Of a stretch of 64,000 nucleotides of DNA, positions 15,937 to 64,000 are shown one piece after another. This DNA comes from Gemmatimonadaceae bacterium (GTDB lineage Bacteria > Gemmatimonadota > Gemmatimonadetes > Gemmatimonadales > Gemmatimonadaceae). The position numbers were made by a program, and so were the translations under genes. The DNA lies in assembly GCA_040882285.1 (NCBI GenBank), contig JBBEBQ010000005.1, positions 241,681 to 305,680 of the forward strand, written 5' to 3'. Numbering within the stretch: position 1 is the first letter of the stretch; every line of letters begins with the position of its first letter. Below the pieces are notes generated by a model, which was not told the DNA's origin, did not search any database, and saw only the letters and a program-made list of their open reading frames with translations.

Positions 15937-15971
15937 TTGGCTGTTGGCTGTTGGCTGTTGGCTCTTGGCTA
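15937..15971. repeat. Heptamer array, TTGGCTG type, 5 units
   Basis: Three exact TTGGCTG units followed by TTGGCTC and TTGGCTA, between the damaged tRNA-Thr and tRNA-Leu. It is the first array on the host side of the prophage boundary. Confidence 0.85.
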
Positions 15972-16015
15972 ACTGCCCCACAACCGCCGTTACCGTTCCT
16001 GTCCTTCCGCTTGGC

Positions 16016-16043
16016 CAATAGCCAACAGCTAACAGCCAATAGC
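16016..16043. repeat. Heptamer array, CAATAGC/CAACAGC type, 4 units
   Basis: CAATAGC, CAACAGC, TAACAGC, CAATAGC in register. It is roughly the reverse complement of the TTGGCTG array 45 bp to its left, so the two could pair. Confidence 0.8.
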
Positions 16044-16053
16044 GCCCTTCACA

Positions 16054-16135
16054 TGCCCTGACGCGGACTCGAACCGCGACGCCTTTCGGCACCACCCCCT
16101 CAAGATGGCGTGTCTACCAATTTCACCACCAGGGC
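16054..16135 (-). tRNA. tRNA-Leu (GAG)
   Basis: 82 nt with the long variable arm of a class II tRNA. Anticodon stem CCATC/GGTGG with loop TTGAGGG gives anticodon GAG (codon CUC). Acceptor GCCCTGG pairs with the 3' strand; discriminator A. Confidence 0.93.
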
Positions 16136-16146
16136 ATGAACTGCGG

Positions 16147-16181
16147 TTACTAGTGACTAGTGACTAGTGACTAGTAACTGC
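16147..16181. repeat. Heptamer array, TGACTAG type, 5 units
   Basis: TTACTAG, three TGACTAG, then TAACTGC, between tRNA-Leu and tRNA-Asp. Confidence 0.85.
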
Positions 16182-16186
16182 TACTA

Positions 16187-16260
16187 CGGGGCTGACGGGG
16201 ATCGAACCCGCGACCTCCGGTGTGACAGACCGGCACTCTAACCAGCTGAGCTACAGCCCC
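16187..16260 (-). tRNA. tRNA-Asp (GTC)
   Basis: Cloverleaf with acceptor GGGGCTG/CAGCCCC, anticodon stem CCGGT/ACCGG and loop CTGTCAC (anticodon GTC), T arm CGGG-TTCGATC-CCCG. Discriminator G. Confidence 0.95.
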
Positions 16261-16269
16261 CAAAAAAAA

Positions 16270-16308
16270 CAGCTAGCAGCTAGCAGCTAGCAGCTAGCAG
16301 CTTACAGC
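16270..16308. repeat. Heptamer array, AGCTAGC type
   Basis: Four AGCTAGC-type units followed by AGCTTAC, between tRNA-Asp and tRNA-Glu. The unit is nearly palindromic. Confidence 0.85.
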
Positions 16309-16333
16309 AACGACCGTCGTACACCCATCCAGT

Positions 16334-16403
16334 AGCCCCAAGGGGAATCGAACCCCTCTCTGCACCGTGAAAGGGTGCCGTCCTAACCGATAGACGATGG
16401 GGC
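16334..16403 (-). tRNA. tRNA-Glu (TTC)
   Basis: Acceptor GCCCCAT with a 3' TTGGGGC strand (one mismatch at its base), anticodon stem GCACC/GGTGC, loop CTTTCAC (anticodon TTC). Confidence 0.93.
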
Positions 16404-16441
16404 CGTACGGTTTTCCCCTCGACAGCATCCTGCAACAACAT

Positions 16442-16513
16442 AGCGGTAACGGGATTCGAACCCGTGTTTGAGCCTTGAGAGGGCTCCGTCCTAGTCCCCT
16501 AGACGATACCGCC
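16442..16513 (-). tRNA. tRNA-Glu (CTC)
   Basis: Anticodon stem GAGCC/GGCTC with loop CTCTCAA (anticodon CTC); acceptor GGCGGTA/TACCGCT-type pairing. It is the second glutamate isoacceptor in the cluster. Confidence 0.93.
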
Positions 16514-16520
16514 AGGACTG

Positions 16521-16581
16521 CGGCTATTGGCTATTGGCTATTGGCTTTTTGCTAACAGCCAAGAGCCAACAGCTAACAGCT
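16521..16581. repeat. Double heptamer array, CTATTGG and GCCAACA types, facing each other
   Basis: Three CTATTGG units are followed, after TTTTTG, by four units close to GCCAACA/GCTAACA. The two halves are imperfectly complementary and could form a hairpin between tRNA-Glu and tRNA-Trp. Confidence 0.8.
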
Positions 16582-16592
16582 GGTTTTCAGTA

Positions 16593-16665
16593 CAGGCCCG
16601 GCAGGACTTGAACCTGCAACCCCCGGTTTTGGAGACCGGTGCTCTACCAATTGAGCTACGGACCT
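16593..16665 (-). tRNA. tRNA-Trp (CCA)
   Basis: Acceptor AGGTCCG/CGGGCCT, anticodon stem CCGGT/ACCGG, loop CTCCAAA (anticodon CCA), discriminator G. Confidence 0.95.
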
Positions 16666-16699
16666 AACACGGCCTCCAACTTCGACCGCTTCTTTCGAG

Positions 16700-16773
16700 G
16701 GTGGCTGACGGGAATTGAACCCGCAACCCCCGGTGCCACAGACCGGTGCTCTAACCAATTGAGCTACAGCCAC
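16700..16773 (-). tRNA. tRNA-His (GTG)
   Basis: Acceptor GTGGCTG/CAGCCAC, anticodon stem CCGGT/ACCGG, loop CTGTGGC (anticodon GTG), discriminator C and a G available at position -1, as expected for tRNA-His. Confidence 0.95.
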
Positions 16774-16778
16774 CATGG

Positions 16779-16808
16779 ACTAGTCACTAGTCACTAGTCA
16801 CCTGTCAT
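16779..16808. repeat. Heptamer array, CTAGTCA type, 3-4 units
   Basis: Three CTAGTCA units and a degenerate one, between tRNA-His and the end of efp. It is the reverse complement of the TGACTAG type. Confidence 0.8.
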
Positions 16809-16841
16809 TCTAAGCCCGCCCGACGGGCGAATCAACCGACG

Positions 16842-17405
16842 CTACTTCGCCCGATCGAGGTACTCTCCCGTATTCGGGTTCACGCGAATCTTCTCGCCCG
16901 TGCCCACGAACTCGGGCACGTTCACCACGACTCCGTTCTCCAGCTTCGCCGGCTTGGCCGACGCCGTCTTCGTCGCGGTCTTCATGACCGGTGAAGTGTC
17001 TACGATCTCGAACACCATCGCGTTGGGCAGCTGAATGCCGATCGGCCGGCCGTTGTAGTACTCGGCCTGGATCCGCATCCCCGGCTGCATCCACTGCGCG
17101 TTGTCGCCCAGCGCCTCCTCGTCCAGCTCGATCTGGTCGTAGTTCTCGGTGTTCATGAAGTGGTACGTGTCGCCACCCTGGTACATGAACTCGAGATCGT
17201 GCGTCTCCATGGACGCCTTCTCCACCGAATCCGACGCGCGGAAGCGGTGCTCGAAGCTCGAGCCGGAACGCAGGTTCTTGAGCTTCGTCTGAATCATCGC
17301 GCGCAGATTCCCCGGCGTGTGATGCCGGAACTCGACCACGCGGCACGGCTCGCCGTTGTGGACGAGGACCATACCCCGGCGGATCTGGGTTGCGGGCATT
17401 GCCAT
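16842..17405 (-). CDS. efp: Translation elongation factor P
   Basis: 187 residues from the ATG at 17405; the GAAGGAAG ribosome site upstream supports it over a longer frame (an ATG two codons later is also possible). Three OB-type domains with family motifs: MVLVHNGEPCRVVEF, the KLKNLRSG strand, and C-terminal FVGTGEKIRVNPNTGEYLDRAK. EF-P rescues ribosomes stalled at proline runs. The tip loop reads HTPGNLRA, so the residue aligned with the modified Lys34 of E. coli is Asn33. It lies downstream of no obvious modification gene. Confidence 0.95.
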   Translation of the reverse strand: MAMPATQIRRGMVLVHNGEPCRVVEFRHHTPGNLRAMIQTKLKNLRSGSSFEHRFRASDSVEKASMETHDLEFMYQGGDTYHFMNTENYDQIELDEEALGDNAQWMQPGMRIQAEYYNGRPIGIQLPNAMVFEIVDTSPVMKTATKTASAKPAKLENGVVVNVPEFVGTGEKIRVNPNTGEYLDRAK

Positions 17406-17532
17406 AGCTGATCTTCCTTCAAAAACGTTAGCTGCACCGCCCGGAGGCGCGTGCAGCGGCCATAAACCAAGACAGCCTTTGAATTTAGCGGATTTTGGGG
17501 CGTCCTGCAACCGGGCAGGAGCCCGGTTCTCG

Positions 17533-18024
17533 CTAGGGCTGGGCCGCCGCCGCGGGAGGCGTCGTACTGACGTGCTTCGACAGCTTCCAGGAACCGTCCG
17601 GCTGCCGCCGAAGCGTCACGACGTAGTGGCCGCGAACAGTCTGCGCCGCGCCGTTCGGCGGAGTGACTGTCTGTCTGAATTCGCCGTAATCGTAAGCGAC
17701 GTCGCCCGACACGACGACTTCCCTCGAATCGACGGTGTCGATCGTGCTGATCGGGAACGACTCGGCCAGCGCCTGCTGAATCGCCGCCCGGCCGCGGGCG
17801 GCCGGCGCTTCGGTCGCCACGAAGATGGCGTCGTCGGTGTACATCGCCGCCACCGCCGCGGCATCATCCCTGGCCGCCGCGGCAAGCCATGCATCACGAA
17901 CAGCCGCGATGTCGGCGCTCGTGGCCGCTGGAGATCCAGTGGTGTCTGACGTGGCGGGAGCCGGCTGCTCGGCACAAGCGAGAAGGGCGAACAGCGGGAT
18001 GGCGAGTACGGCGCGCTGTGACAT
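17533..18024 (-). CDS. Lipoprotein with SnoaL/NTF2-like fold
   Basis: 163 residues. Lipobox LLAC at about 13-16 (ALLACAEQ) gives a lipid-anchored start, then an Ala/Thr/Ser linker. Residues about 38-155 match the SnoaL/DUF4440-type cone fold: VRDAWLAAAARDDAAAVAAMYTDDAIF, GRAAIQQAL, DYGEFRQT, HYVVTLRRQPDGSWKLSKH. Such proteins bind small ligands or act as unspecific isomerase-like modules; no substrate can be read. It is downstream of efp on the opposite side of a short gap. Confidence 0.75.
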   Translation of the reverse strand: MSQRAVLAIPLFALLACAEQPAPATSDTTGSPAATSADIAAVRDAWLAAAARDDAAAVAAMYTDDAIFVATEAPAARGRAAIQQALAESFPISTIDTVDSREVVVSGDVAYDYGEFRQTVTPPNGAAQTVRGHYVVTLRRQPDGSWKLSKHVSTTPPAAAAQP

Positions 18025-18178
18025 TGGTGTCCTCCGCGTGTTGGCGTTTATGCGATGAGCCCCGTGAGTTGTCGCCAGGGCGCTCCAATATGCATTCGCC
18101 GGTTACGGCTCGCCAGCCGGCGCGAGCACCGGGTCGCCGGGCCGTCCGCCGAGACAAATGTCACCGCCAGGAAGGACC

Positions 18179-19015: not shown

Positions 19016-19062
19016 ATGACCTCCGCTCAGACGATGTGACCACGCCAAACGACCCGCAAGTG

Positions 19063-19791: not shown

Positions 19792-20461
19792 GCTCGTCGC
19801 TACCAACCTCACGAAGGAATACCAGAGCGGATCATCAAGCTTAACAGCGCTGCGGGACGTCAGCTTCAGCGTCCCGCAGGGCGACCTCGTCGCGATTTCC
19901 GGACCGTCCGGCAGCGGCAAGACCACGCTGCTCGGCCTGCTCGCCGGATTGGATACACCGACGCGGGGCACTGTGGTCCTCGACGGCGACGACATCACGG
20001 CGATGTCCGAGGACGGACGCGCCAGGCTGCGCGGCGCCAAGGTCGGGTTCGTCTTTCAGAGCTTTCAGCTTATCCCCGCACTGACGGCGCTGGAGAACGT
20101 GCAGGTCCCGCTCGAGCTGCGCGGCGAGCGCGACGCCGCCCTTCGCGCGCGGGAGCTGCTCGCCCGCGTGGGGCTGGGCAAGCGCGGCAGCCACTTCCCC
20201 GCCCAGCTTTCCGGCGGCGAGCAGCAGCGCGTAGCGATCGCGCGCGCCTTCGCCAATTCCCCGCGCATCCTCTTCGCCGACGAGCCGACGGGCAACCTCG
20301 ACGGCGTTACCGGCGAGATGATCATGGACACGGTCGTCGAGCTGAATCGCGAATCCGGCACCACGGTGATCGTGGTGACCCACGAGCAGACTGTCGCGTC
20401 GCGCGCGTGCCGCCTCATCCGCCTGAGCGACGGCGCGCTGGTCGAAGACCGGTCCATCTGA
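19790..20461 (+). CDS. ybbA: ABC transporter ATPase (YbbA/LolD type)
   Basis: 223 residues, start MLVATNLTKEY at 19790, typical for the family. Walker A GPSGSGKT at about 37-44, Q loop FVFQSFQL, signature LSGGEQQRVAIARA, Walker B ILFADEP, and the switch His in VVTHEQT are all present. It pairs with the FtsX-type permease that follows (TGATG overlap) and belongs to the MacB/LolD-like class that moves lipid-linked or hydrophobic molecules from the inner membrane. The start overlaps the tesA start on the other strand. Confidence 0.9.
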   Translation: MLVATNLTKEYQSGSSSLTALRDVSFSVPQGDLVAISGPSGSGKTTLLGLLAGLDTPTRGTVVLDGDDITAMSEDGRARLRGAKVGFVFQSFQLIPALTALENVQVPLELRGERDAALRARELLARVGLGKRGSHFPAQLSGGEQQRVAIARAFANSPRILFADEPTGNLDGVTGEMIMDTVVELNRESGTTVIVVTHEQTVASRACRLIRLSDGALVEDRSI

Positions 20462-23013
20462 TGCGGCTGTGGCGCTCCATCGCGCGGCTCGCGTGGCGCG
20501 AGAGCCGGACCGCGCGCAGGCGGCTGCTGCTGTCGATGTCGTCCATCTCGCTCGGCGTCGGCGCGCTGGTCGCGATCGACTCCTTCGCGGCCAATCTCAC
20601 TCGCTCGCTACGCGAGCAGTCGCGCGTGCTGCTCGGCGGCGACATCGCATTCAGCTCTCGTCAGCCCTTCCGCCCGGCCGTGGATTCGTTGTTCGATTCG
20701 CTCGCGCGAAACGGCGTCGAGATCGCGCGAATCACCAAGTTCCCCTCGATGGCCGTAGCGCGGCGGAGCGGCGATTCGCGCCTCGCGCCCATCCAGGCGG
20801 TCACTGGCAACTATCCACTGTACGGCGACATCACGACGGAACCGGCGGGCCGGTGGAGCGCGCTGCGGACCGGGCCGCACGCGCTGATCGACCCCTCGCT
20901 GCTGACTGCGCTCGATGTCCGGATCGGCGACACGATCTCGATCGGCTACGCCCGCTTTGCCATCGCCGGGACGGTGACCGACATCCCCGGCACGCCGGAG
21001 ATCTCGGAGATGATCGGCCCGCGCGTATTCATACCTGCGCGATACCTTGCCGAAACGCAGCTGCTGCAATTCGGCAGCACCGCGAGCTACGAGGTGCTAG
21101 GAAAAACGCGGACCCCGGAGATCGCCGAGCGGATCTCGCGCGACGTGCGCCCGCGGCGGCGCGCGCTCGACGTCAGGGTGCAGACCGCCGAGCAGACCGA
21201 GGAGGACGTCAGCGACGCGATCGCGCAGCTCGCGCAGTTCATCGGCGTAGTCGGACTGGTGGCGCTGCTGCTGGGAGGGCTCGGCGTCGCGAGCGGAGTG
21301 CACGCGTTCGTCGCGCGCAAGATCGACACGGTGGCGATTCTTCGCTGCCTCGGCGCGACGAGCCGGCAGGTGCTGGCTGTGTACGTGCTCCAGGCGGCCG
21401 TGATGGGGCTGATCGGAGCCGCGTTCGGTGTCGTGCTCGGACTCGGCATGCAGTTTCTCGTGCCGATCGCGCTCAGCGACGTTCTGCCCGTGGACGTGAG
21501 CGTCCGGCCCGAGCCGTCGGCGATGGTCGCCGGGCTGCTCGTGGGCGCGTGGGTCGCGCTGGCGTTCGCGCTGCGTCCGCTGCTCGCGCTGCGGAAGATC
21601 TCGCCGCTGCAGACGCTGCGGCGCGACGCGGACTCGAACGTGCTGCGGATGCATTGGCGCGACGCGCCGCGGCTGCTGGTGAACGCCGCGATCGCCGCCA
21701 GCATCGTGACCATCGCCGTCATGCGCACCGGCTCGCTCACCGAAGGCGTCGCGATGAGCATCGGTGCAGGGGTCGCCTTGCTGGTGCTCGGCGTGAGTGC
21801 CGCACTCCTGTCGTGGCTCGCGCGCAAGGCCGTGCGGCCGCGCTGGCCGTACGTCCTGCGGCAGGGGATCTCCAACCTGCACCGCCCGGCCAACCAGACG
21901 CGGCCGGTGATTCTCGCGCTCGGATTCGGGGTGTTTCTCGTGACTACGCTGTACGTGGTGCAATCGAGCCTACTCGACCGCTTCTCGCTGGGAGTGGGCA
22001 GCTCCAGCGCGAACGTCGTGTTCTTCGACGTGCAGCAGGACCAGCAGCCGGGCGTGGACTCACTGGTGCGCGCGGGCGCGGAGCGGATGGTTCAGAAAGC
22101 CCCGGTCGTGGTCATGCGGGTCGGCTCCATCAACGGAGTACCCGTCACCGACGACCGGATCGAGCGCACACCCGAGGGAAGACGCGCGCGCTGGGCGCTG
22201 CGCCGCGAGTACCGCTCGACCTTCCGCGACACGCTGGTGGCGTCGGAGCGGCTCGTCGCCGGCAAATGGGACGCGGAGACGAGCGCGCAGTCCGACACGT
22301 CCGCGATCTCCGTCGAGCAGGACCTTGCCCGTGATCTCAGGCTCGAGCTCGCCGACGTGGTCGTCTGGGACGTGCAGGGAGTGCAGGTGCCGACGCGGAT
22401 CACCAGCCTGCGCGCCGTGGACTGGAACAGGTTCGAGCCGAACTTCTTCATCGTGTTTCGGCCGGAGGCGCTCGCGCGCGCGCCGACGCAGTACATCGTG
22501 ACGGCGAAGACCCTCGACGCGGCCCAGACCGCGCGGCTGCAGCGCTCGATCGTGTCCCGCTTCCCGAACGTGTCGAGCATCGACCTCTCGCTCATCCAGA
22601 ACACGATCGGCAAGATCCTGGATCGCGTGACGGTCGCCGTGCGCTTCCTCGCGCTGTTCAGTCTCGCGATGGCCGTGCCGATCCTGATCTCGGCGGTCGC
22701 GGGCGCCCGGCGCGAGCGCGTGCGCGAAGGCGTGCTGCTCAAGACGCTCGGCGCTACGCGCGCGCAGGTCGCGCGGGTGATGCTGGCCGAATACACCGCG
22801 CTCGGCGTGCTTGGCAGCGCTACGGGGCTGCTGCTGGCCTACGCCGCCGGGTGGGCGATCACGCGCTTCGTGTTCGACACCGCTTTCACACCGGCGATAA
22901 AGGCGAGTCTCGGCATTGCGGGGTTGATGATCGGACTAACGGTCACGATCGGGTTGCTAGCGGGGCGGGAAGTGTTCCGGGAAACGCCGATGGCAGCCTT
23001 GAGGGGCGACTAG
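20461..23013 (+). CDS. ybbP: FtsX-family permease (YbbP type)
   Basis: 850 residues from the ATG at 20461. An N-terminal membrane segment (LLLSMSSISLGVGALVAIDSF) is followed by a large periplasmic domain, three central spans (about 260-385: FIGVVGLVALLLGGLGVASG), two more around 405-450, a second periplasmic domain and a C-terminal FtsX triplet. This is the ten-span two-FtsX layout of YbbP. It works with the ybbA ATPase. Its TAG stop is part of a TGACTAG heptamer array. Confidence 0.88.
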   Translation: MRLWRSIARLAWRESRTARRRLLLSMSSISLGVGALVAIDSFAANLTRSLREQSRVLLGGDIAFSSRQPFRPAVDSLFDSLARNGVEIARITKFPSMAVARRSGDSRLAPIQAVTGNYPLYGDITTEPAGRWSALRTGPHALIDPSLLTALDVRIGDTISIGYARFAIAGTVTDIPGTPEISEMIGPRVFIPARYLAETQLLQFGSTASYEVLGKTRTPEIAERISRDVRPRRRALDVRVQTAEQTEEDVSDAIAQLAQFIGVVGLVALLLGGLGVASGVHAFVARKIDTVAILRCLGATSRQVLAVYVLQAAVMGLIGAAFGVVLGLGMQFLVPIALSDVLPVDVSVRPEPSAMVAGLLVGAWVALAFALRPLLALRKISPLQTLRRDADSNVLRMHWRDAPRLLVNAAIAASIVTIAVMRTGSLTEGVAMSIGAGVALLVLGVSAALLSWLARKAVRPRWPYVLRQGISNLHRPANQTRPVILALGFGVFLVTTLYVVQSSLLDRFSLGVGSSSANVVFFDVQQDQQPGVDSLVRAGAERMVQKAPVVVMRVGSINGVPVTDDRIERTPEGRRARWALRREYRSTFRDTLVASERLVAGKWDAETSAQSDTSAISVEQDLARDLRLELADVVVWDVQGVQVPTRITSLRAVDWNRFEPNFFIVFRPEALARAPTQYIVTAKTLDAAQTARLQRSIVSRFPNVSSIDLSLIQNTIGKILDRVTVAVRFLALFSLAMAVPILISAVAGARRERVREGVLLKTLGATRAQVARVMLAEYTALGVLGSATGLLLAYAAGWAITRFVFDTAFTPAIKASLGIAGLMIGLTVTIGLLAGREVFRETPMAALRGD

Positions 23014-23035
23014 TGACTAGTGACTAGTAACTGCG
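23009..23035. repeat. Heptamer array, TGACTAG type, at the ybbP stop
   Basis: The last codons of ybbP (GAC TAG) form the first unit; two more TGACTAG and TAACTGC follow. Confidence 0.85.
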
Positions 23036-23043
23036 AACTACCC

Positions 23044-23071
23044 TGCGTGCTGCGTGCTGCGACCTGCGCCC
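23044..23071. repeat. Heptamer array, GCTGCGT type, 4 units
   Basis: TGCGTGC, TGCGTGC, TGCGACC, TGCGCCC in register, directly after the TGACTAG array. Confidence 0.75.
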
Positions 23072-23100
23072 CAACAGCCGAGGTTTTCCGCCTTGCTCGC

Positions 23101-23135
23101 AGCTGGCAGCTTCAAGCTGGCAGCGCGCAGCGCAG
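23101..23135. repeat. Heptamer array, AGCTGGC type, 5 degenerate units
   Basis: AGCTGGC, AGCTTCA, AGCTGGC, AGCGCGC, AGCGCAG in 7-bp register, just downstream of infA on its 3' side. Confidence 0.65.
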
Positions 23136-23143
23136 TGACCCCG

Positions 23144-23365
23144 TTAGGTCTTATGGCGGAAGGTAATTCGGCCGCGAGTGAGATCGTACGGCGACACTTC
23201 GACAGTTACGCGATCGCCCTGAAGCACCCGAATGCGGAACCGCCGCATGTTGCCGGCCAGGGTGGACAGCACCTCGTGCCCGCTGTTCACGGATACGCGA
23301 AACGTCGCGTTGGGGAGGACATCGACGACCGTGCCCTCGAGCTGGATGGAATCTTGTTTTGCCAC
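23144..23365 (-). CDS. infA: Translation initiation factor IF-1
   Basis: 73 residues, full family length, with [36 protein letters not shown] and [15 protein letters not shown], the OB-fold signature. The start is GTG (codon at 23363-23365). No Shine-Dalgarno is seen; a -10-like ATTATA at 23372-23377 ends 6 bases before the start, suggesting a leaderless message. It stands alone, not in a ribosomal-protein operon within view. Confidence 0.95.
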
Positions 23366-23402
23366 AGAGTGTATAATGCCCTAACGCATGAGCTTGCGTC
23401 AA
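23366..23402 (-). promoter_or_regulatory. Candidate promoter of infA, close to the start codon
   Basis: On the leftward strand TTGACG (23402-23397) is followed after 19 bases by ATTATA (23377-23372), or after 18 by CATTAT. Transcription would begin about at the GTG start codon, leaving no leader. Spacing is longer than the usual 17. Confidence 0.45.
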
Positions 23403-23417
23403 CAACGCGGCCGTAGT

Positions 23418-23452
23418 TACTAGTCACTAGTCACTAATCACTAGTCACCTAT
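23418..23452. repeat. Heptamer array, TCACTAG type, 5 units
   Basis: TTACTAG, TCACTAG, TCACTAA, TCACTAG, TCACCTA between the infA promoter and phhA. Confidence 0.85.
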
Positions 23453-23483
23453 ATTTCCCCGAGCCATCAGTTGAGGATGTAGA

Positions 23484-24413
23484 ATGGCTATCCCAGTGAC
23501 GGAAGTCAGTCGAGCGGGTCTCACGACCACCAAGGCGCCCTTCATCGAAGAGGCGGTGAGTCGCGGCGAGCTGTACATCCACCAGCCGTACGAGCTGTAC
23601 AGCGAGCCCAACCACGAGGCGTGGCGCAAGCTGTACGCCCGGATGCACGACCGCTGGCTGAAGTACGCCAATCACCGGTTTCTGCAGGGGCTCGAGACGC
23701 TGTGCCTGACGCCCGACCGGATCCCGCGCCTCGAGGACGTCAACAAGTTCATGGCGCCGCGCACCGGCTTTCAGGCGAAAGCGGTGAGCGGCTACGTGCC
23801 GCCGTTCCTGTTCTTCGACTGTCTCCGCCGGCGCGAGTTCCCCACCACGATCACCATCCGGGACGGCACAACGCTCGATTACCTGCCCGAGCCGGACATC
23901 TTCCACGACATCGCCGGCCACGTGCCGATGCACACGGACCAGGCGTTCGCCGACACGCTGGTGCGGTTCGGCGAGGCGGCGCACACCGCCGTGCGGCTGG
24001 TGCAGGACGTCCGCGACAAGGACGAGCAGGCGCGCCGCGCCACCAGCATCATCAAGGCGATGGCCCGGTTCTTCTGGTTCACGATCGAGTTCGGGCTGAT
24101 GAAGTCCGAGGACGGCAAGGGGCTCAAGGCGTACGGCAGCGGCTTGCTCTCGTCCTACGGGGAGCTGGCGCACAGCGTCGACTCACCGACCGTGCAGCGG
24201 TACCCGATCCAGCTCGAGTGGGTGGTGAACCAGTACTTCGAGATCGACCACTATCAGCCGCTGCTCTTCATCGTCGACGACTTCGAGCACCTGTTCGATC
24301 TGGTCGGGACGCTCGAGACCTGGATGAAGGAAGGCAAGCTCGACAACGTCTCGCCCGGTGAGCCGGCGCTGAGCGATGCCGACATTCGCAGCTTCATCGA
24401 GGCCACGGTCTAG
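23484..24413 (+). CDS. phhA: Phenylalanine-4-hydroxylase
   Basis: 309 residues. The biopterin-dependent aromatic amino acid hydroxylase fold is clear: iron ligands His141 and His146 (HDIAGHVP) and Glu202 (FTIEFGL), with GLLSSYGEL and YFEIDHYQP downstream. It converts phenylalanine to tyrosine with tetrahydropterin and oxygen. The length is like other bacterial enzymes with a short N-terminal extension. It ends 3 bases before the convergent msrB. Confidence 0.93.
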   Translation: MAIPVTEVSRAGLTTTKAPFIEEAVSRGELYIHQPYELYSEPNHEAWRKLYARMHDRWLKYANHRFLQGLETLCLTPDRIPRLEDVNKFMAPRTGFQAKAVSGYVPPFLFFDCLRRREFPTTITIRDGTTLDYLPEPDIFHDIAGHVPMHTDQAFADTLVRFGEAAHTAVRLVQDVRDKDEQARRATSIIKAMARFFWFTIEFGLMKSEDGKGLKAYGSGLLSSYGELAHSVDSPTVQRYPIQLEWVVNQYFEIDHYQPLLFIVDDFEHLFDLVGTLETWMKEGKLDNVSPGEPALSDADIRSFIEATV

Positions 24414-24902: not shown

Positions 24903-26807
24903 TCAGCCCGCCGGCTGAAGGCTCCCCACCCTGAGGGTGCTCGTCGGCACCGGCTCGACCTCGAGCGGCGCTCCGTTCCTCCGCACTACGTAGGCCTCCA
25001 TCGCGAAATACTCCGGCAGCCCGAGCTGATCCACGAGGTGCGCGGTGTTGCGGTTGCGGCCTTCCACGCGCTGCCAGAACTCGCGCTCGTCCGGTCCGGG
25101 GAACGGCGCGCGGTCCTTCTGCGACTGGTGCTGGAAGATCGCCGTGATCTTGGCGCGCAGCTCGTCCTCGGACAGCGGCACCAGCACGTCGGCGTCGCTG
25201 ACGCTCCACTCCTGCCACGCGCCGCGGTAGTACCACATCTCCGGCGTCTCGCCGTCGTAGGACTCCAGCGCGAGCTCGACCGCCTCGAGGCACATCCGGT
25301 GCGTCCCGTGCGGGTCGGAGAGATCGCCCGCCACGAACATCAGCTCGGGGCGGTGCTCCTCCAGGAGAGCCAGCACGATGCGCACGTCCTCGTCGCCGAT
25401 CGGATCCTTGCGCACCTTCCCGGTCTGATAAAACGGCATGTTGAGGAAGCGCGCCTGCTCGCGGCCCATGCCGAACGTGCGGATGCCCGCCACCGCCTCC
25501 GCTTCGCGGATGGTCCGCTTGAGGATGAGGACCTCCTCGCTGTCGACTTCACCCGGAGACTTGCCGTCGAGGAACTTCTCGATCGCCGCGAGCCGCGTGG
25601 GCGACGCGGGATCGGTGACGCCCAGCTCCAGCCCCGCGCGGCGGATGAAGTCCACGTAGCGGCGAACCTCGTGATCGAACACCGCGATGTTCCCCGAAGT
25701 CATATAGGCGACCAGAATGTTGTTCCCGTTCTGGTGGAGCTTGTGCAGGATGCCGCCCATCGAGATGACGTCGTCGTCCGGGTGCGGCGAGAACACGATG
25801 ATGCGCTTCCCCGTCGGGAGTTTGCTGCGGCCGCGGATCTTCGCGACCAGCGCGTTGAACACCTCGCCGTTGAGCGGGCCCGCCGAGCCGTGGCGCGCGA
25901 GTAGCGCACTGAGATGGTGCTCGCGGTAATCGAGCGAGTCGAGCTTGAGGACGGACTTGCCCGTCACCTCGCTGAGCCAGATGACCGCCTCGATTTCGCG
26001 CGCGCGCGTCCACAGCACCTCGCCCACGACCCACGGCGTCTTCACCCGCGTCAGCTCGGCCGCGGCGGCGGGGTCGAGGTAGAACACGGCGTTCGAGTGC
26101 TCCTGCAGATAGGTCGCGGCCACGTCGGGATCGGGCTCGCCCTCGACGGCGCGCCGCACGATCTCCGACTTGTGCTCGCCGGTGGCGACGAGCGCGATCT
26201 CGCGCGCCTCCATGATGCTGGCGACGCCCATCGTGATCGCTTCGGTCGGGACGTTGTCCTCGCCGAAGAAATCGGCGGCCGCGTCGCGGCGCGTGACGGT
26301 GTCGAGCGCGATGCGCCGCGTGCGCGACTCGATCCCCGAGCCCGGCTCGTTGAAGCCGATGTGTCCCGTCTTGCCGATGCCGAGCAGCTGGAGATCGATG
26401 CCGCCCGCCTGGCGGATGGCCTCCTCGTACGCGACGCACTCATCGTCCACCTGCTCGCGCGATACGTCGCCCCGCGGGATGTGCACGTTCTCCGGCCGGA
26501 TGTTGATGTGCGAGAAGAGATTCTCCCACATGTACCGGTGATAGCTGTGGATGCTGTCCGGCTTCATCGGGTAGTACTCGTCCAGATTGAACGTTACCAC
26601 GTCGGAGAAGTCGAGCCCCTCCTCGCGGTGCATGCGGATCAACTCGCGGTAGATCCCGATCGGCGTGCTGCCGGTGGCGAGCCCGAGCACGGCGTGGGAG
26701 CCCTCCGCGCGGCGCTGCTGGATGATTTCGCCGATGCGCCGCGCGAGCCTTTCGGCGATGGCGTCGTATTCGACGATGACGAGTGGGACACGTTCTCTGT
26801 TAGACAT
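24903..26807 (-). CDS. NagB-like deaminase fused to an LmbE/PIG-L deacetylase
   Basis: 634 residues. Residues about 10-270 are glucosamine-6-phosphate deaminase-like: ATGSTP at 45-50, NLDEYY with Asp76, GHIGFNEPGS at 148-157 with His149 and Glu154. Residues about 332-520 are an LmbE/PIG-L deacetylase, with the zinc motif PHPDDD at 341-346 and a later DPHGTHR. The loop GKTGHI differs from the GNDGHI of E. coli NagB, so the Asp usually paired with the His is Thr147. The fusion suggests linked N-deacetylation and deamination of an amino-sugar phosphate; the substrate is not known. Confidence 0.88.
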   Translation of the reverse strand: MSNRERVPLVIVEYDAIAERLARRIGEIIQQRRAEGSHAVLGLATGSTPIGIYRELIRMHREEGLDFSDVVTFNLDEYYPMKPDSIHSYHRYMWENLFSHINIRPENVHIPRGDVSREQVDDECVAYEEAIRQAGGIDLQLLGIGKTGHIGFNEPGSGIESRTRRIALDTVTRRDAAADFFGEDNVPTEAITMGVASIMEAREIALVATGEHKSEIVRRAVEGEPDPDVAATYLQEHSNAVFYLDPAAAAELTRVKTPWVVGEVLWTRAREIEAVIWLSEVTGKSVLKLDSLDYREHHLSALLARHGSAGPLNGEVFNALVAKIRGRSKLPTGKRIIVFSPHPDDDVISMGGILHKLHQNGNNILVAYMTSGNIAVFDHEVRRYVDFIRRAGLELGVTDPASPTRLAAIEKFLDGKSPGEVDSEEVLILKRTIREAEAVAGIRTFGMGREQARFLNMPFYQTGKVRKDPIGDEDVRIVLALLEEHRPELMFVAGDLSDPHGTHRMCLEAVELALESYDGETPEMWYYRGAWQEWSVSDADVLVPLSEDELRAKITAIFQHQSQKDRAPFPGPDEREFWQRVEGRNRNTAHLVDQLGLPEYFAMEAYVVRRNGAPLEVEPVPTSTLRVGSLQPAG

Positions 26808-26827
26808 ACTGGTGACTATTTAGCCTG

Positions 26828-26861
26828 TGACTAGTGACTAGTGACTAGTGACTAGTAACAA
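26828..26861. repeat. Heptamer array, TGACTAG type, 4-5 units
   Basis: Four TGACTAG units and TAACAAA, between the NagB-LmbE gene and the four-helix-bundle gene. It ends CTAGTAAC, matching in inverted form the sequence after that gene. Confidence 0.85.
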
Positions 26862-35368: not shown

Positions 35369-35812
<444 letters not shown>

Positions 35813-35874: not shown

Positions 35875-37725
<1,851 letters not shown>

Positions 37726-37853
37726 AGCTAGAGAAATCTAGTTCGCTCCTGGGTGGAATCGGTGGTCCCGATTACATCAGGCGCGGGCATTGCATTCCGG
37801 GAAAAGCGCTGCGTGCTGCGTGCTGCGTCCTAGCTGCGACCGGAGAGTGGCGT
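37726..37853. other. Intergenic space between typA and the DUF2071 gene
   Basis: Divergent promoter space. It holds the GCTGCGT heptamer array; no conserved promoter is recognised. Confidence 0.4.
37808..37835. repeat. Heptamer array, GCTGCGT type, 3-4 units
   Basis: Three GCTGCGT units followed by CCTAGCT and GCGACC. Confidence 0.8.
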
Positions 37854-53857: not shown

Positions 53858-55663
<1,806 letters not shown>

Positions 55664-56773
55664 ATGACGTCACTGGTCGTGCAGACGAGCTTCATTGGCG
55701 ACATGGTGCTGACCACGCCATTGATCGCGGAGCTGGCTCGCCGGGGACCGGTGGACGTACTCACCACGCCGATCACGGGAACGTTGCTCGCGAACAATCC
55801 CGCCGTCCGCCGCGTGATCCTGTACGACAAGCGCGGCGCGGACCGCGGGCCCGTCGGCCTCTGGCGCGCGGCGCGCTCGACGCGCGAGCTGTTCGACGAG
55901 GGCAGAATGCACCCCGTGAGCTACGACGCGGCGTATCTCGCCCAGGGATCGATCCGGAGCGCGATGGCCGCGCGCCTCGTGGGAGCCGGGGAGTACGTCG
56001 GCTTCAGTACCTCGGCCGGTCGCGCGCTGTACACCAGGGTCATCCCCTACCGCGAGGACCAGCATCACGCCGAGCGGCTCTGGTCGCTCGCCGCCTGGAA
56101 CGAACCGGGCGCAGCCCCGGCGCCGAATATCCGCCCCGCGCTCTACCCCGGAGAAAAGGAACGCGAGGCCGTCGACGTTCTGCTGGGTCGAGCGCCGTCC
56201 AAGCCGGCGCCTCGGGGCAGTCACCAGTCACTAGTCACTAGTCACCAGTCACTCGTAGTCCTGGCTCCCGGCAGCACCTGGGCCACCAAGCGCTGGCCGT
56301 ACTTCGCCGAGCTCGCGCGCATTCTCGCGGCGCGCTTCCGTGTAGCCATTGTCGGGAGCGACGCGGAGCAGGACGCCGCGCGCACGATCCGCAACGAAGC
56401 GGCAGTCGAGATCTGCGACGCGACCGGCCGGCTGTCGCTGCTCGGCTCGGCCGAGCTGATCGGACGCGCCGCGGCGCTCGTCACCAACGATTCCGCGCCG
56501 CTCCATCTGGCCTCGGCCATGAACACGCCCACGGTGGCCGTGTTCGGCCCCACGGTCCCCGCCTTCGGCTTCGGTCCGCTCGCCTCGCGCAATGCGGTCG
56601 CCGGCCTCGATTCCCTGGCGTGCCGCCCCTGCCACCGCCACGGCCCCCGCCGCTGTCCGCTTGGCCATTGGCGGTGCATGCGCGACCTTTCCCCGGAGCA
56701 CGTCGCGCAGCTCGTCGAGACCGTAGCCGACGAGCGGTTAGCCAACAGCCAACAGCCAACAGCCAACAGCTAG
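55664..56773 (+). CDS. Glycosyltransferase family 9 (heptosyltransferase-like)
   Basis: 369 residues. N-terminal half (SLVVQTSFIGDMVLTTPLIAELARRG) and C-terminal nucleotide-sugar part (APGSTWATKRWPYFAELAR, TNDSAPLHLASAMNTPTVAVFGPT) are those of GT9 enzymes of lipopolysaccharide core synthesis. A heptamer array codes for the linker SHQSLVTSHQSLV (about 187-199) between the domains, and another codes for the last residues SQQPTANS with the TAG stop. Neither stretch belongs to the family. The acceptor sugar is unknown. Confidence 0.85.
   Translation: MTSLVVQTSFIGDMVLTTPLIAELARRGPVDVLTTPITGTLLANNPAVRRVILYDKRGADRGPVGLWRAARSTRELFDEGRMHPVSYDAAYLAQGSIRSAMAARLVGAGEYVGFSTSAGRALYTRVIPYREDQHHAERLWSLAAWNEPGAAPAPNIRPALYPGEKEREAVDVLLGRAPSKPAPRGSHQSLVTSHQSLVVLAPGSTWATKRWPYFAELARILAARFRVAIVGSDAEQDAARTIRNEAAVEICDATGRLSLLGSAELIGRAAALVTNDSAPLHLASAMNTPTVAVFGPTVPAFGFGPLASRNAVAGLDSLACRPCHRHGPRRCPLGHWRCMRDLSPEHVAQLVETVADERLANSQQPTANS
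56221..56255. repeat. Heptamer array inside the glycosyltransferase gene, TCACTAG type
   Basis: TCACCAG, TCACTAG, TCACTAG, TCACCAG, TCACTCG in the interdomain linker. The reading frame is kept and the stop TAG triplet is out of frame here. Confidence 0.88.
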
Positions 56774-56775
56774 CA
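56741..56775. repeat. Heptamer array at the glycosyltransferase stop, GCCAACA type
   Basis: Four GCCAACA units and GCTAGCA; the stop codon TAG is part of the fifth unit, and the next gene's ATG follows at once. Confidence 0.88.
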
Positions 56776-59634: not shown

Positions 59635-59635
59635 C

Positions 59636-60190: not shown

Positions 60191-60522
60191 TGCTGGGGAT
60201 GCGGCCGGCGACGATTCGCAACCTGCGCACGAGGGAGGGCGATCTCCGGGTGACGCGCTACGTCGCCACGCGCCGCGGGGACCCGGAGCGCGGGCCCAAG
60301 ATCTGGATGCGCGCGTCCGACGCGCTGATCCGCCTGGTGGAGAACGGCGAGCTCGTCTGGGTGTTCGGCCCCAGACGGCACGAGCTGGCCGAGCTGGAGA
60401 TCGACGACTCCATTCCGGAAGGCGACGTCTTCGCGCGCGACATCGCCGGACTTTCAATCTCGGAGTACATCCGCGTGTCCAAACCCGATCTCGACACACC
60501 TCGCAACCGGAGCAGGGCCTGA
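60190..60522 (+). CDS. Hypothetical protein (110 aa)
   Basis: From the ATG at 60190 (TGATG overlap). Basic, beta-rich (IRNLRTREGDLRVTRYVATRRGDP, KIWMRASDALIRLVENGELVW, RRHELAELEIDD). No family is recognised. Its stop TGA lies in CTGA with a possible start of the next gene. Confidence 0.55.
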   Translation: MLGMRPATIRNLRTREGDLRVTRYVATRRGDPERGPKIWMRASDALIRLVENGELVWVFGPRRHELAELEIDDSIPEGDVFARDIAGLSISEYIRVSKPDLDTPRNRSRA

Positions 60523-61679
60523 CCGGACCGGAGCTGGACCGGCCCCGCGGCCTCGCGACGCTGGCCATCCACGGCGACACCAAGCGGCGTGAGGCGGACT
60601 CGCCCGTGGGCGAGCCGCTCGTGCAGTCCGTCAACTACGTGCAGGACTTCGGCACGGAGTCGCTCAAGTACGCGCGTTACGGCAACACGCCGAACATCCA
60701 GTCGCTGGAGCGCACGCTGGCGCTGCTCGACGGCGCGGAAGCGGCGGTGGTCACGTCCAGCGGGATGGGCGCCACGGCCTGCGCGATGCTGGCGCTGCTC
60801 CGCCCCGGCGATCACCTCCTCGCAAGCGCCTGGATCTACGGCGGGACCCACCATCTCTTCACCACCGAGCTGCGCGGGCTCGGCATCGAGGTCACGCTGG
60901 TGGATCCGTCCGACCCGCGCGTGTGGCGGAAGGAAGCGCGGCCGGAGACGCGCGCCATCTTCCTCGAGACGCCCGTCAATCCGACGTGCCGCGTCATCGA
61001 CCTCGCGCCGATCCGCGGCTACACCAACGCGCAGGGGATTGCGCTGGTGATCGACTCGACGTTCGCGAGCCCGATCAACTTCCGGCCGCTCGAGCACGGC
61101 GCCGACGTGGTCATCCATTCGACCACCAAGTACCTCAACGGCCACCACGACGTGCTCGGCGGGGTCGTGCTCGGCTCCGCGTCGTTCGTCGACGAGGTTC
61201 GCGACAAGGTGAAGTACTGGGGCCAGGCGCCGGACCCGTTCGCGTGCTGGCTGCTCTCGCGCGGCCTCAAGACGCTGGGCGTGCGCGTGCGGCAGCAGAA
61301 CGAGAGCGCGCTGCAAGTCGCGCGCTGGGCCGAAAAGCAGCGCGCGATCTCGGCGGTGCACTATCCCGGGCTCGAGTCGCACCCCGATCACGAGATCGCG
61401 CGCGCGATTCTGTCGGGGTTCGGCGGGATGCTCGCGATCGAGCTGGCCGGCGGCGCGCCCGCGGCGGACGCGTTCCTCCGCAAGCTCAAGCTGTTCACCC
61501 ACGCGGCCAGCCTCGGCGGCGTCGATTCGCTGGTCATCGAGCCGCGCTTCTCGTCGCACGCGCGCATGACGCCCGAGGAGCGCGCCGAGATGGGTATCCC
61601 GGACGGATTCGTCCGGCTGAGCATCGGCGTCGAGGACGTCGAGGACCTGATCACGGATCTCGCTCAGGCGCTTTCCTGA
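60519..61679 (+). CDS. Cys/Met metabolism PLP enzyme (cystathionine synthase/lyase type)
   Basis: About 386 residues. The PLP lysine lies in STTKYLNGH; other family blocks are SSGMGATACAMLALL, YGGTHHLF, ETPVNPTCRVIDL, DSTFASPINFRPLEHGAD. Homology begins at LATLAIHGDTK, which is upstream of the first GTG (60606), so the real start is earlier. The only in-frame codon that fits is CTG at 60519, overlapping the previous stop as CTGA. Substrate (gamma-synthase, gamma- or beta-lyase) is not resolved. Confidence 0.82.
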   Translation: MTGPELDRPRGLATLAIHGDTKRREADSPVGEPLVQSVNYVQDFGTESLKYARYGNTPNIQSLERTLALLDGAEAAVVTSSGMGATACAMLALLRPGDHLLASAWIYGGTHHLFTTELRGLGIEVTLVDPSDPRVWRKEARPETRAIFLETPVNPTCRVIDLAPIRGYTNAQGIALVIDSTFASPINFRPLEHGADVVIHSTTKYLNGHHDVLGGVVLGSASFVDEVRDKVKYWGQAPDPFACWLLSRGLKTLGVRVRQQNESALQVARWAEKQRAISAVHYPGLESHPDHEIARAILSGFGGMLAIELAGGAPAADAFLRKLKLFTHAASLGGVDSLVIEPRFSSHARMTPEERAEMGIPDGFVRLSIGVEDVEDLITDLAQALS

Positions 61680-62378
61680 ATGATCAGGTTTCAGGGCGTC
61701 GGCAAGGAATACCCACGCACCGGCATCGCGCTCAGCCACATCACTTTCCACGTGCGGAAGGGGGAGTTCGCGTTTCTCACGGGGCCGAGCGGCTCGGGCA
61801 AGTCCACGATCCTCAAGCTGGCGTACATGGAGGAGAAGCTCAGCCACGGTGACGTGCGCGTGAGCGGCCTGAGCGCGCGGGGAGCGTCGCGCCGCGAGAT
61901 CGCCAAGCTGCGCCGCAAGCTCGGGATAGTGTTCCAGGACTTCCGCCTGCTGGAGGATCGCAACGCCGAAGCGAACGTCGCGTTCGCGCTGGAGGTCACC
62001 GACACGCCGAAAGCCGCGATCCAGCCGCGCGTGCACCGCGTGCTGGCGCAGGTGGGACTGGCATCGAAGGCCACTTCGTTTCCGCGCGAGCTGTCCGGCG
62101 GCGAGCAGCAGCGCGTCGCGATCGCGCGCGCGCTGGTCAACGATCCGTTCGTGCTGATCGCCGACGAGCCGACGGGAAATCTGGACGACCGCGCGACGCG
62201 CGGAATCTTTCAGTTGCTGCGCGACATCAACTCGACCGGCACCGCCGTCCTCATGGCGACGCACGACCTCGAACTGGTGCGGCGGACCGATTATCGCGTG
62301 ATCGAGCTGAACCACGGACGCATCGTGTACGACTCGGCCGAGCCCCCGCCGACTGAAGCGGCCGGAGGCGCGCCGTGA
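61680..62378 (+). CDS. ftsE: Cell-division ABC ATPase FtsE
   Basis: 232 residues. GPSGSGKST at about 35-43, FQDFRLLEDRN after the Q loop, LSGGEQQRVAIARAL, LIADEPTGNLD, and the switch His in ATHDLEL. The start MIRFQGVGKEYP follows directly after the PLP enzyme stop. It works with FtsX (GTG overlap) to activate cell-wall hydrolases at the septum. Confidence 0.92.
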   Translation: MIRFQGVGKEYPRTGIALSHITFHVRKGEFAFLTGPSGSGKSTILKLAYMEEKLSHGDVRVSGLSARGASRREIAKLRRKLGIVFQDFRLLEDRNAEANVAFALEVTDTPKAAIQPRVHRVLAQVGLASKATSFPRELSGGEQQRVAIARALVNDPFVLIADEPTGNLDDRATRGIFQLLRDINSTGTAVLMATHDLELVRRTDYRVIELNHGRIVYDSAEPPPTEAAGGAP

Positions 62379-63223
62379 GGCTCGCGACGCGCGAGGCGTT
62401 CACCGGCTTCCGGAAATCGCCGCTGCTGAGCGTGCTCGGCATCGTCACGATCGCGTTCTCGCTGTTCGCCTTCGGGCTGTTCGCGCTGGTGGCGCTGAAT
62501 ATCCGCAACGCGCTGCAGGCGGTCGAGGAGCGGGTCGAGATCCGTGCGTTTGTCGCCGACGGGACGTCGCCGGAAGCCATCGCGACCGCGATGGGCGACA
62601 TCGGCTCGTTTCCGGAGGTGCAGCAGGTCACCTACGTGTCGCCGGATGACGCGCTGGTGCGCGCCAAGGAGGAGCTGCGCGAGTTCAGCGACGTGTTCGA
62701 GAGCGGCTTCCTCCCCGGATCGATGGACATCCGCCTGCGCCCCGGGTTCCGGGACCCGGCGACGGTGAAGTCGGTGGCCGACCGGGCCGGCACGTACGAG
62801 TTCGTCGACGACGTCCGCTACGGCCAGGAGTGGGTCGAGAAGCTGTACCGGCTGCGCACGCTGGCGACGTTCGCGGGGCTCGCGCTCGGCGCGGCGTTCG
62901 CGCTCGTGGCCGTGATCATCATCGGCGCGACGATACGCACGGCCGTGCTCGCGCGCAGCCGCGAGATCGCGATCATGCGGCTCGTCGGCGCGACCGACGG
63001 ATTCGTGCGCATGCCCTTCCTCATCGACGGGTTCGTGAAGGGAGTGCTCGGCGGCCTGCTGGCGCTGGGCATGACGTGGTTCGCCGCCCAGACGATCACC
63101 CGCCACATGATTCAGACGGAGTTCTTCGACGCGCGCGTGGCGGCCGTCGGCGTGATCGCCGGCGCGCTCATCGGATTGCTGGGGAGCCTCTTCTCGGTAG
63201 GCCGGCACCTGAACGAGGTATGA
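62375..63223 (+). CDS. ftsX: Cell-division permease FtsX
   Basis: 282 residues, GTG start. Four spans (about 20-45, 170-195, 220-240, 250-270) around a large extracytoplasmic loop of about 125 residues (VEERVEIRAFVADGTS ... VEKLYRLRTLATF). It controls an amidase activator outside the membrane; the next gene encodes such a protein. Confidence 0.9.
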   Translation: MRLATREAFTGFRKSPLLSVLGIVTIAFSLFAFGLFALVALNIRNALQAVEERVEIRAFVADGTSPEAIATAMGDIGSFPEVQQVTYVSPDDALVRAKEELREFSDVFESGFLPGSMDIRLRPGFRDPATVKSVADRAGTYEFVDDVRYGQEWVEKLYRLRTLATFAGLALGAAFALVAVIIIGATIRTAVLARSREIAIMRLVGATDGFVRMPFLIDGFVKGVLGGLLALGMTWFAAQTITRHMIQTEFFDARVAAVGVIAGALIGLLGSLFSVGRHLNEV

Positions 63224-64000
63224 AGCGCTGTTGGCTGTTGGCTGTTGGCTGTTGGCTTTCCGTCGGCGCGGCAACGGCGGTCCACGCCCAACAACAGCCG
63301 CAGACCACCGAGGCGCGGCTCAGGGCGCAGCGGGACGAGCTGGAGCGGGTACGCCGCGAGCGCGAGGAGCTGCAGCGGCGGATTGCCGGGCTCCAGCGCA
63401 CCGCGCACAACCTCACGGACGAAGTCCAGCTCCTCACGCGGCAGCGCGAGGCCACCAGGCGCGTCGTGCAGTCGCTCGACCGGCAGCTCATCGCGATCAC
63501 CGAGGAGGTCCGGACCACCACCACCAACCTCGTGCGGGCCGAGGACGAGGCGGCGATCAAGCACGCCATCCTTCGCAAGCGTGTGGCGGACATTTACAAG
63601 CGCGGCCCGCTGTTCACGGCGGAAGTCCTGCTCTCCGCGCAGTCGTTCGGGGACTTGATCGCGCGCTACAAGTACCTGCACCTCCTCGCGCAGCGCGATC
63701 GCGCGCTGGTGCGCCGCGTGGACGACCTGCAGCGGCGCATCAGGGACAACCGCGCGCAGCTGGTGCGGCTCCAGGGCGACGTGCGCCAGAACATGCTGGA
63801 CAAGGCCGACGAGGAGCAGCGGATCGCCGGGCTGCAGGAGCGCGAGCGGCAGGCGCTGCGGAACGTGCAGGCGGACACGCGCCGCACGAGGCAGCGCCTC
63901 GCCGAGCTCGAGCGGACTGCGCGCCGCCTGACGAGCGTCATCGAGAACTTCGAGGCGGAGCGCCGGCGGGCGGCGGCGCGGACGGGCGCGACACGCGCGC
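63220..64000 (+). CDS. EnvC-like coiled-coil murein hydrolase activator (3' end missing)
   Basis: The frame is open from the ATG at 63220 (ATGA overlap with ftsX) to the window end, 260 codons without a stop. A signal peptide (KRCWLLAVGCWLSVGAATAV, then HA before the predicted cut) is encoded by a TTGGCTG heptamer array. Then comes a long coiled coil with RVADIYKRGPLFTAEVLLSA and FGDLIARYKYLHLLAQRDR, the EnvC-type pattern. The C-terminal M23 domain, if present, lies outside. Together with FtsE and FtsX it would form the septal hydrolase-activating complex. Confidence 0.85.
   Translation, partial: MKRCWLLAVGCWLSVGAATAVHAQQQPQTTEARLRAQRDELERVRREREELQRRIAGLQRTAHNLTDEVQLLTRQREATRRVVQSLDRQLIAITEEVRTTTTNLVRAEDEAAIKHAILRKRVADIYKRGPLFTAEVLLSAQSFGDLIARYKYLHLLAQRDRALVRRVDDLQRRIRDNRAQLVRLQGDVRQNMLDKADEEQRIAGLQERERQALRNVQADTRRTRQRLAELERTARRLTSVIENFEAERRRAAARTGATRA
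63227..63258. repeat. Heptamer array encoding the signal peptide, TTGGCTG type
   Basis: GCTG plus three TTGGCTG and TTGGCTT. In this frame three units code for a 7-residue hydrophobic cycle (WLLAVGC), so the array itself forms the h-region of the signal peptide. Confidence 0.9.

Follow-up and report, generated by a model that had tools for sequence, protein, structure and literature searches.

Short tandem arrays of heptamers (7-bp units) are scattered along a 64,000-nucleotide stretch of a Gemmatimonadaceae genome (GenBank assembly GCA_040882285.1, contig JBBEBQ010000005.1, positions 241,681 to 305,680), hereafter called the window. Many of these arrays are the arms of dispersed palindromic elements, which can tentatively be read as non-autonomous hairpin cassettes that may be replaced as a whole and then modified by slippage within their arms. 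In general terms, the elements follow one plan. Some four G-rich heptamers, preceded by a short A-rich flank, are separated by a spacer (0 to ~50 bp) from some four C-rich heptamers, after which comes a T-rich flank. They usually measure 60-111 bp and are mostly intergenic. Within one genus, site and shape persist while sequence changes, and inheritance seems more faithful for location and geometry than for the letters themselves. Since site and shape outlast sequence within the genus, plain slippage and quadruplexes are both disfavoured as the general cause.

The source genome (G000; 2,888,048 bases in 27 contigs, 96.6% complete) was compared with three other species of its genus (G001, G002 and G003) and with two genomes of the same order, G029, from a different family, and G033. 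The main samples of G000 comprised 400 kb for period scans and 464 kb for family, run-length and location counts, and pairs and polarity were scored in 864 kb; stretches partly picked near earlier matches were kept out of the density figures. Heptamer families and variable unit positions were set by eye, after the arrays had been seen. Genes were called by means of a codon-score script, which is blind to RNA genes except for the tRNA genes added by hand within the window.

Period, pairing and polarity of the arrays

A first-pass annotation of the window had listed fifteen arrays, all of period 7, and proposed a single generating process. Tandem Repeats Finder places an array within a few bases of all fifteen starts, and an exact scan recovers 13 of them as perfect runs, the imperfect ones being 16014-16043 (82% matches) and the weak array at 23095-23124 (69%). 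When runs of at least 12 matched positions are counted, the window contains 12 of period 7, versus 0, 5, 0, 4, 0 and 0 of periods 5, 6, 8, 9, 10 and 11. This excess extends beyond the window: the 400 kb of G000 hold 50 such runs of period 7 and 0, 2, 0, 6, 2 and 0 of the same other periods, and a mismatch-tolerant count gives 67 versus 1, 14, 0, 11, 3 and 2. The runs of periods 6 and 9 would fit multiples of the codon. In any case, the equal abundance of periods 6, 8 and 9 that the annotation had named as fatal to its proposal does not occur in the 400 kb sampled, and an assembly artefact is unlikely because arrays occupy orthologous sites in separate assemblies. It is also true, according to Tandem Repeats Finder, that the 15.7-kb prophage of the window carries no arrays; this says little, since 67 arrays per 400 kb predict only 2.6 there (Poisson probability of zero, ~0.07).

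Read on the G-rich strand, the units of the genus form at least seven families: A (GCTRTTG), B (GTGAYTR), C (GCTGCTA/GCAGCTA), D (GCTGCGT), E (GGTATCA), F (GGTTTNN) and G (GGTTGAC). The 87 arrays counted in 464 kb of G000 are distributed as 33 A, 38 B, 6 C, 7 D, 1 E, 1 F and 1 unclassified; families E and G are commoner in the relatives. Several different units exist, as had been claimed. TGACTAG and its reverse complement belong to one family, B; TTGGCTG/CCAACAG and CTATTGG, which had been separated, are variants of the single family A and mix within arrays. Variation was tallied at positions 4 and 7 of the A unit and 5 and 7 of the B unit (a choice made by eye), and A and G are about equally frequent at position 4 of the A unit.

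Arrays that had been listed as separate items are in several cases paired arms, e.g., 15936-15970 with 16014-16043, and 16522-16554 with 16551-16581. Of the 87 arrays in the 464 kb, 48 belong to 24 pairs. Neighbours of the same family at most 130 bp apart number 41 in the 864 kb, and 39 of these are oriented (+,-), none (-,+), one (+,+) and one (-,-). This G-rich-first rule is additional information, because inverted repeats could take either polarity; the G-rich arm lies on the left in all 23 inverted pairs found in 464 kb of G000. From end to end, the 39 (+,-) pairs measure 60-168 bp (at most 111 bp in 30 of them), with spacers of zero or less in nine cases and of 24-49 bp in 23. The outer flank, read on the G-rich strand, is rich in A, whose frequency goes from 0.54 to 0.38 at positions -6 to -3 (167 arrays; background 0.186). 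Five hand-picked elements give stable RNA folds (z -4.6 to -13.4). As for location, 68 of 82 arrays in the 464 kb are intergenic, 10 partly overlap a gene and 4 lie within called open reading frames (ORFs).

Arm length is narrowly distributed in family A: 3, 46, 8 and 12 of 69 arrays measure <27, 27-34, 35-41 and >41 bp, respectively (6, 21, 16 and 18 of 61 in family B). When degenerate units are counted in the 464 kb, family A shows 3, 0, 14, 16, 1, 1 and 1 runs of 1, 2, 3, 4, 5, 6 and 13 units, and family B 9, 6, 15, 5, 3, 2 and 2 runs of 1, 2, 3, 4, 5, 6 and 9 units; shuffled sequence yielded two one-unit A runs and three one-unit B runs. The decay in length from two units onwards that characterizes slippage is thus absent from family A, which has no two-unit run, and family B and G029 are broader. 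The longest arrays in the 864 kb reach 95 bp.

Orthologous sites and distribution across genomes

Occupancy in G000 was compared with that in G001, G003 and G002 at 88 intergenic sites (minimum length, 20 bp) drawn from seven stretches. The six stretches outside the window were picked for being array-rich in G000, and the counts of sites occupied only in this genome are, in consequence, inflated. Sites occupied in both genomes, only in G000, only in the relative, and in neither number 25, 3, 1 and 39 for G001 (Fisher p 3e-14), 26, 3, 1 and 41 for G003 (p 5e-15), and 14, 15, 1 and 37 for G002 (p 9e-6). This association holds when both intergenic spacers measure at least 50 bp (p 2.6e-9, 1.5e-9 and 5.1e-5 for G001, G003 and G002).

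The family is far less constant than the occupancy: no family is common to both genomes at 7 of the 25 doubly occupied sites for G001, 5 of 26 for G003 and 8 of 14 for G002. Among 56 sites comparable in the four species, 25 are occupied in any of them and 24 in at least two; the family switches at 16 of these 24 (15 without the ambiguous composite site window_23013). At L032_5678, for instance, G000, G001, G003 and G002 carry B, C, A and A, and four of the 24 sites have A in G000 and G003 and C in G001. At L032_15106, the same species carry A, B, A and nothing, the gene spacing being -4 bp in G002 versus 106 bp in G000; here CTCA flanks the element on both sides in G000 and G003. Inverted ends together with presence or absence at orthologous sites, both typical of miniature inverted-repeat transposable elements (MITEs), are therefore observed. 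At L033_7055, two elements in tandem are present in G003; G002 has a short palindrome there. Numerous loci carry families A and B, and each of the four species has both. Copy number varies among relatives, as slippage would predict, with head-to-tail units and differences of one unit between species, e.g., beside tRNA-His. The family switches suggest that heptamer arrays used as strain markers can change by replacement too and not only stepwise.

A pattern of two A units is found in all four genomes of the genus (355, 123, 32 and 313 matches in G000, G001, G002 and G003) and in one of 21 other genomes of the family (G016, once, along with one match to the reversed control). In the same order, there are 10 matches in G029 and none in G033. 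The reversed A pattern had been intended as a negative control, but G033 matches it 28 times, and hardly any match comes from other genomes; G033 has its own arrays of the CAACCGA kind (e.g., L264:236-265), and the matches there therefore represent heptamers of another unit. G033 also has one G-rich-left inverted pair, with the unit TGCGGAA. Other genera of the family were sampled in pieces of at most 20 kb: of 14 usable samples, four contain one period-7 array each and ten contain none, and two more consisted entirely of N.

The proposal that a fixed period with variable sequence means more than one repeat spreading gains support from G029. Its 280 kb contain 26 arrays of period 7 and 0, 3, 1 and 0 of periods 5, 6, 8 and 9; the units are mostly of the GAGACGA, GAGACGT and GAGAGGT kind (four arrays are of the A kind), and all nine inverted pairs are G-rich-left, so that the architecture is that of G000 with mostly different units. 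A three-unit A pattern, scanned without a scrambled control, occurs in at least 119 stretches, with many phyla among the matches listed. Among those listed matches, 63 of 117 arrays exceed 41 bp, being often longer and closer to slippage, and 9 of 10 inverted pairs are G-rich-left, although three of the rows (L135, L149) come from G001 and one is almost unskewed.

Competing explanations and known heptamer systems

According to the cassette reading, whole hairpins would arrive or be exchanged at docking sites next to genes, and slippage would afterwards add or remove heptamers within single arms. Two routes of replacement are conceivable: the element may insert at a preferred site, or another hairpin may be copied when a replication fork stalls. 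Several observations weigh against this reading. Regarding the enzyme, a search restricted to two gene families gave no mobilising gene. The Y1 transposase (PF01797, RAYT) has no match in G000-G003 or G029 (it is present in 14 of 41 genomes, with three matches in G033), and mobilisation by RAYT was hence discarded. Reverse transcriptase RVT_1 (PF00078) has none in G000, G001, G002, G029 and G033, and two in G003; a telomerase-like addition by such an enzyme, considered on account of the head-to-head G-rich polarity, was also rejected. Either protein is thus unlikely as the enzyme of the element. Regarding copies, none near-identical appears in the 864 kb, the best near-full-length identity between loci being 89% (spacerless A elements). 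Relatedness among spacers is weak (13 of 28 exceed the 95% letter-shuffle null, five the 99% one), no link between spacers of different families exceeds the 99% null, and a core common to A and B elements (TTCCGC in 15 of 49 spacers, orthologues included) was weakened by the shuffle test and abandoned. CTCA at L032_15106 is the only candidate target-site duplication. Regarding anatomy, 39 of the 87 arrays in the 464 kb are unpaired, arm lengths are uncorrelated within pairs (24 pairs, r -0.08), and the spread of lengths is broad in G029 and in family B, with its nine one-unit and six two-unit runs. Polarity has exceptions: in overlapping stretches of G001-G003, the G-rich arm is on the left in 34 of 37 inverted pairs, and close neighbours of different families in the 864 kb (n = 15) are oriented (+,-) in nine cases, (+,+) in five and (-,+) in one.

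Conserved occupancy with a changing family is also what would be expected of selected gene-boundary hairpins acting as bidirectional terminators or RNA stabilisers, whose architecture would be selected, the heptamer word being free and a lost hairpin being replaced. This explanation, which appears unlikely, agrees with the stable folds, with the predominance of intergenic arrays and with the left A-rich and right T-rich flanks. Bidirectional terminators have just such flanks; here, the intrinsic trait of a stem followed by a T-rich stretch on both strands takes the form of an enrichment and not of a strict tract. Against it, convergent genes hold no significant excess of paired elements between them (10 of 39 versus 17% expected, p 0.20). 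Before the tRNA genes of the window were included, the counts between convergent genes had been 22 of 76 arrays and 12 of 39 pairs; avoidance of divergent genes is not significant either (4 of 39 pairs, p 0.12), and no link emerged to operon ends, against which the annotation had proposed to map the arrays. Selection on an RNA strand was discarded, as the sense strand is no more stable at tandem sites (12 of 25). Furthermore, A/T-richness beside tandem genes is the same in upstream and downstream flanks (3.1 versus 3.0 of 7), and genes abut in G002 where other species carry an element (-4 bp at L032_15106, 4 bp at L295_12268).

The mostly different units of G029 under the same architecture, the failure to find near-identical copies and the lack of Y1 and RVT_1 matches in G000 all favour de novo birth by host replication and repair, with no mobile element involved, in which snap-back synthesis on a small palindrome would make the arms alike and a 7-nt step would add units. 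Palindromes poor in units do occur at some of the orthologous positions, among them L033_7055 and L035_13250 in G002. Nevertheless, a small set of families is shared by many loci and by four species, two-unit runs are absent from family A in the 464 kb, and left and right arms of A elements do not resemble each other more at the two tested positions (21 pairs, r -0.36 and 0.0; for B, 0.51 and -0.06). Such an origin appears unlikely. Loss of SbcCD, by which palindromes might be tolerated, was rejected: SbcD-like matches occur in 41 of 41 genomes, two of them over the curated cut-off, and offer no contrast.

Ordinary replication slippage at heptamers accounts well for the dominance of period 7, for species that differ by one unit, for arrays as long as 95 bp and for the broader lengths of family B. 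Neighbouring units within an arm are also more alike than random (B, 0.812 versus 0.672; A, 0.603 versus 0.530), none of 1000 permutations being as high in either family. But the value for A is little above that of matching places in other arms (0.574), and slippage, which leaves unexplained the 27-34 bp mode of family A with almost nothing shorter, does not on its own produce inverted pairs with a fixed polarity or a change of family at a site. As the sole generator, one of the two options raised in the annotation, it is very improbable.

Beyond the cassette reading, a sequence-agnostic process might build or keep hairpins of about four G-rich and four C-rich heptamers at fixed gene-boundary sites, the word being periodically rewritten. 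This broader idea is doubtful; if true, it would unite these elements, those of the family of G029 and, from the literature, those of Xanthomonas in one widespread, unrecognised bacterial process. With their several families and empty sites, the genomes of this genus offer a test system.

The annotation knew heptamer repeats from cyanobacteria; precedents exist in other bacteria as well, and the arrays described here bring the cases of Xanthomonas, Nostoc and Beggiatoaceae together, as far as the consulted sections of the cited papers go. The GGGAATC repeats of Xanthomonas mostly have four units and form close convergent pairs (70 in Xcc and 75 in Xac) which, on our reading, put the G-rich arm first; 89% (Xcc) and 93% (Xac) are intergenic, 8% and 7% lie between divergent ORFs, and 83% of the gene context is shared (Rehm, 2015; PMC4692102). 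Period, unit number, convergent G-rich pairs and mostly intergenic location are all found here too. Unlike that single family with quadruplex-capable G-tracts, at least seven families switch at sites here, and no GGGNATC-type unit was encountered (GCTRTTG, GTGAYTR, GCTGCTA, GCTGCGT and GGTATCA lack GGG); for this reason, quadruplexes cannot explain the architecture common to both.

In the P6b stem-loop of the Nostoc trnL intron, both hairpin arms are likewise heptamer repeats (Class I TDNGATT, Class II NNTGAGT), and repeated replacement of the whole hairpin by the other class has been inferred (Kaasalainen, 2015; PMC4476775); the same hairpin is described in PMC3488679. That case concerns one intron locus, two classes and intron RNA, in contrast to the many intergenic sites and several families reported here. 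The TAACTGA direct repeats of Beggiatoaceae are dispersed, mostly intergenic arrays of 2-6 units whose mechanism is not known (MacGregor, 2015; PMC4679880), and in this they resemble the present arrays; they differ in having one unit, a single inverted repeat in 170 sets and a position mostly just upstream of start codons. In many bacterial genomes rich in repeats, heptanucleotides reportedly outnumber every other class of longer simple repeat, polymerase slippage being the only proposal made for them (Mrazek, 2007, cited in PMC4679880).

In being small, dispersed, palindromic and mostly intergenic, the elements studied here resemble repetitive extragenic palindromes (REPs) and REPINs, which are mobilised by RAYT transposases (PMC3116915, PMC3733652). 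REPs and REPINs are not known to contain tandem heptamers, and G000-G003 and G029 have no Y1 transposase match. A hairpin survey of 118,019 genomes mentions neither the word heptanucleotide nor Gemmatimonad in the parts examined (PMC13155455), and no account of multi-family heptamer hairpins or of Gemmatimonadota arrays was found in the literature covered, from which subscription papers mostly fall outside.

Arrays of the window and other palindromes

Mostly, as annotated, the arrays of the window lie between genes or at their ends. A complete family-A element (15936-16043) sits just 3' of tRNA-Leu (minus strand), with a left arm (GTTGGCT)n at 15936-15970, a pyrimidine-rich spacer of ~43 bp (alike in G001 and G003) and an inverted right arm at 16014-16043; its RNA fold reaches -61.1 kcal/mol (z -7.6). 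Adjoining it, 15860-15915 has an Rfam tRNA match (36.6 bits) absent from the ARAGORN list. At the gathering threshold, Rfam detects nothing but tRNAs in 15500-64000, and hence no known RNA family.

A plus-strand family-B array, (ACTAGTG)n, at 16149-16179 lies between tRNA-Leu and tRNA-Asp, where G000 and G001 have B, and G003 and G002 have E (CAGGTAT). The tRNA-Asp/tRNA-Glu gap contains a plus-strand family-C array, (GCAGCTA)n, at 16270-16302, with C in G000 and G001, and D in G003 and G002. A spacerless family-A element at 16522-16581 (left arm 16522-16554, right arm 16551-16581; fold z -4.6) fills the tRNA-Glu/tRNA-Trp gap, where G001 and G002 have B. A minus-strand family-B array (16779-16801) separates tRNA-His from the elongation factor P gene (both genes are on the minus strand); it is 7 bp shorter in G003 and missing from G001 and G002.

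Further on, a plus-strand family-B array (23008-23032) overlaps the stop codon of an FtsX/MacB permease gene (20461-23013), a plus-strand family-D array, (CTGCGTG)n, lies 3' of infA (23042-23068), and the weak array at 23095-23124 is possibly a degraded arm. Upstream of infA (23144-23365, minus strand), a minus-strand family-B array (23414-23448) is replaced in G002 by (CAACCGT)n; it stands between infA and a divergent gene for a biopterin-dependent aromatic amino acid hydroxylase (23484-24413). Two more plus-strand arrays are located upstream of minus-strand genes: one of family B (26827-26856) by a glucosamine isomerase/PIG-L gene (24903-26807), and one of family D, (GCTGCGT)3 (37808-37828), by the TypA/BipA gene (35875-37725). 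Two arrays that do not lie between genes are in the glycosyltransferase family 9 ORF at 55664-56773, in which a minus-strand family-B array (56218-56252) is in frame and encodes SHQSLVTSHQSLV, and a minus-strand family-A array (56740-56770) encodes the C-terminus (ANSQQPTANS). Finally, a plus-strand family-A array, (GCTGTTG)n, occupies 63227-63257, just past an FtsX gene (62375-63223).

Other repeats were encountered besides the heptamers. A long GTC-rich repeat with 36-bp and 3-bp periods (35450-35689), perhaps an aspartate-rich stretch, is contained in the called gene at 35369-35776 (minus strand). Outside the window, a GC-rich, REP-type palindrome at L035:10984-11060 and 11243-11310, with many ~45 bp matches on both strands of G001-G003, represents a second dispersed palindrome family in genomes with no Y1 transposase match. 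A MITE-like element of ~190 bp (L032:12150-12341), with long inverted ends, GGATCCTAG...CTAGGATCC, has several matches in G003.

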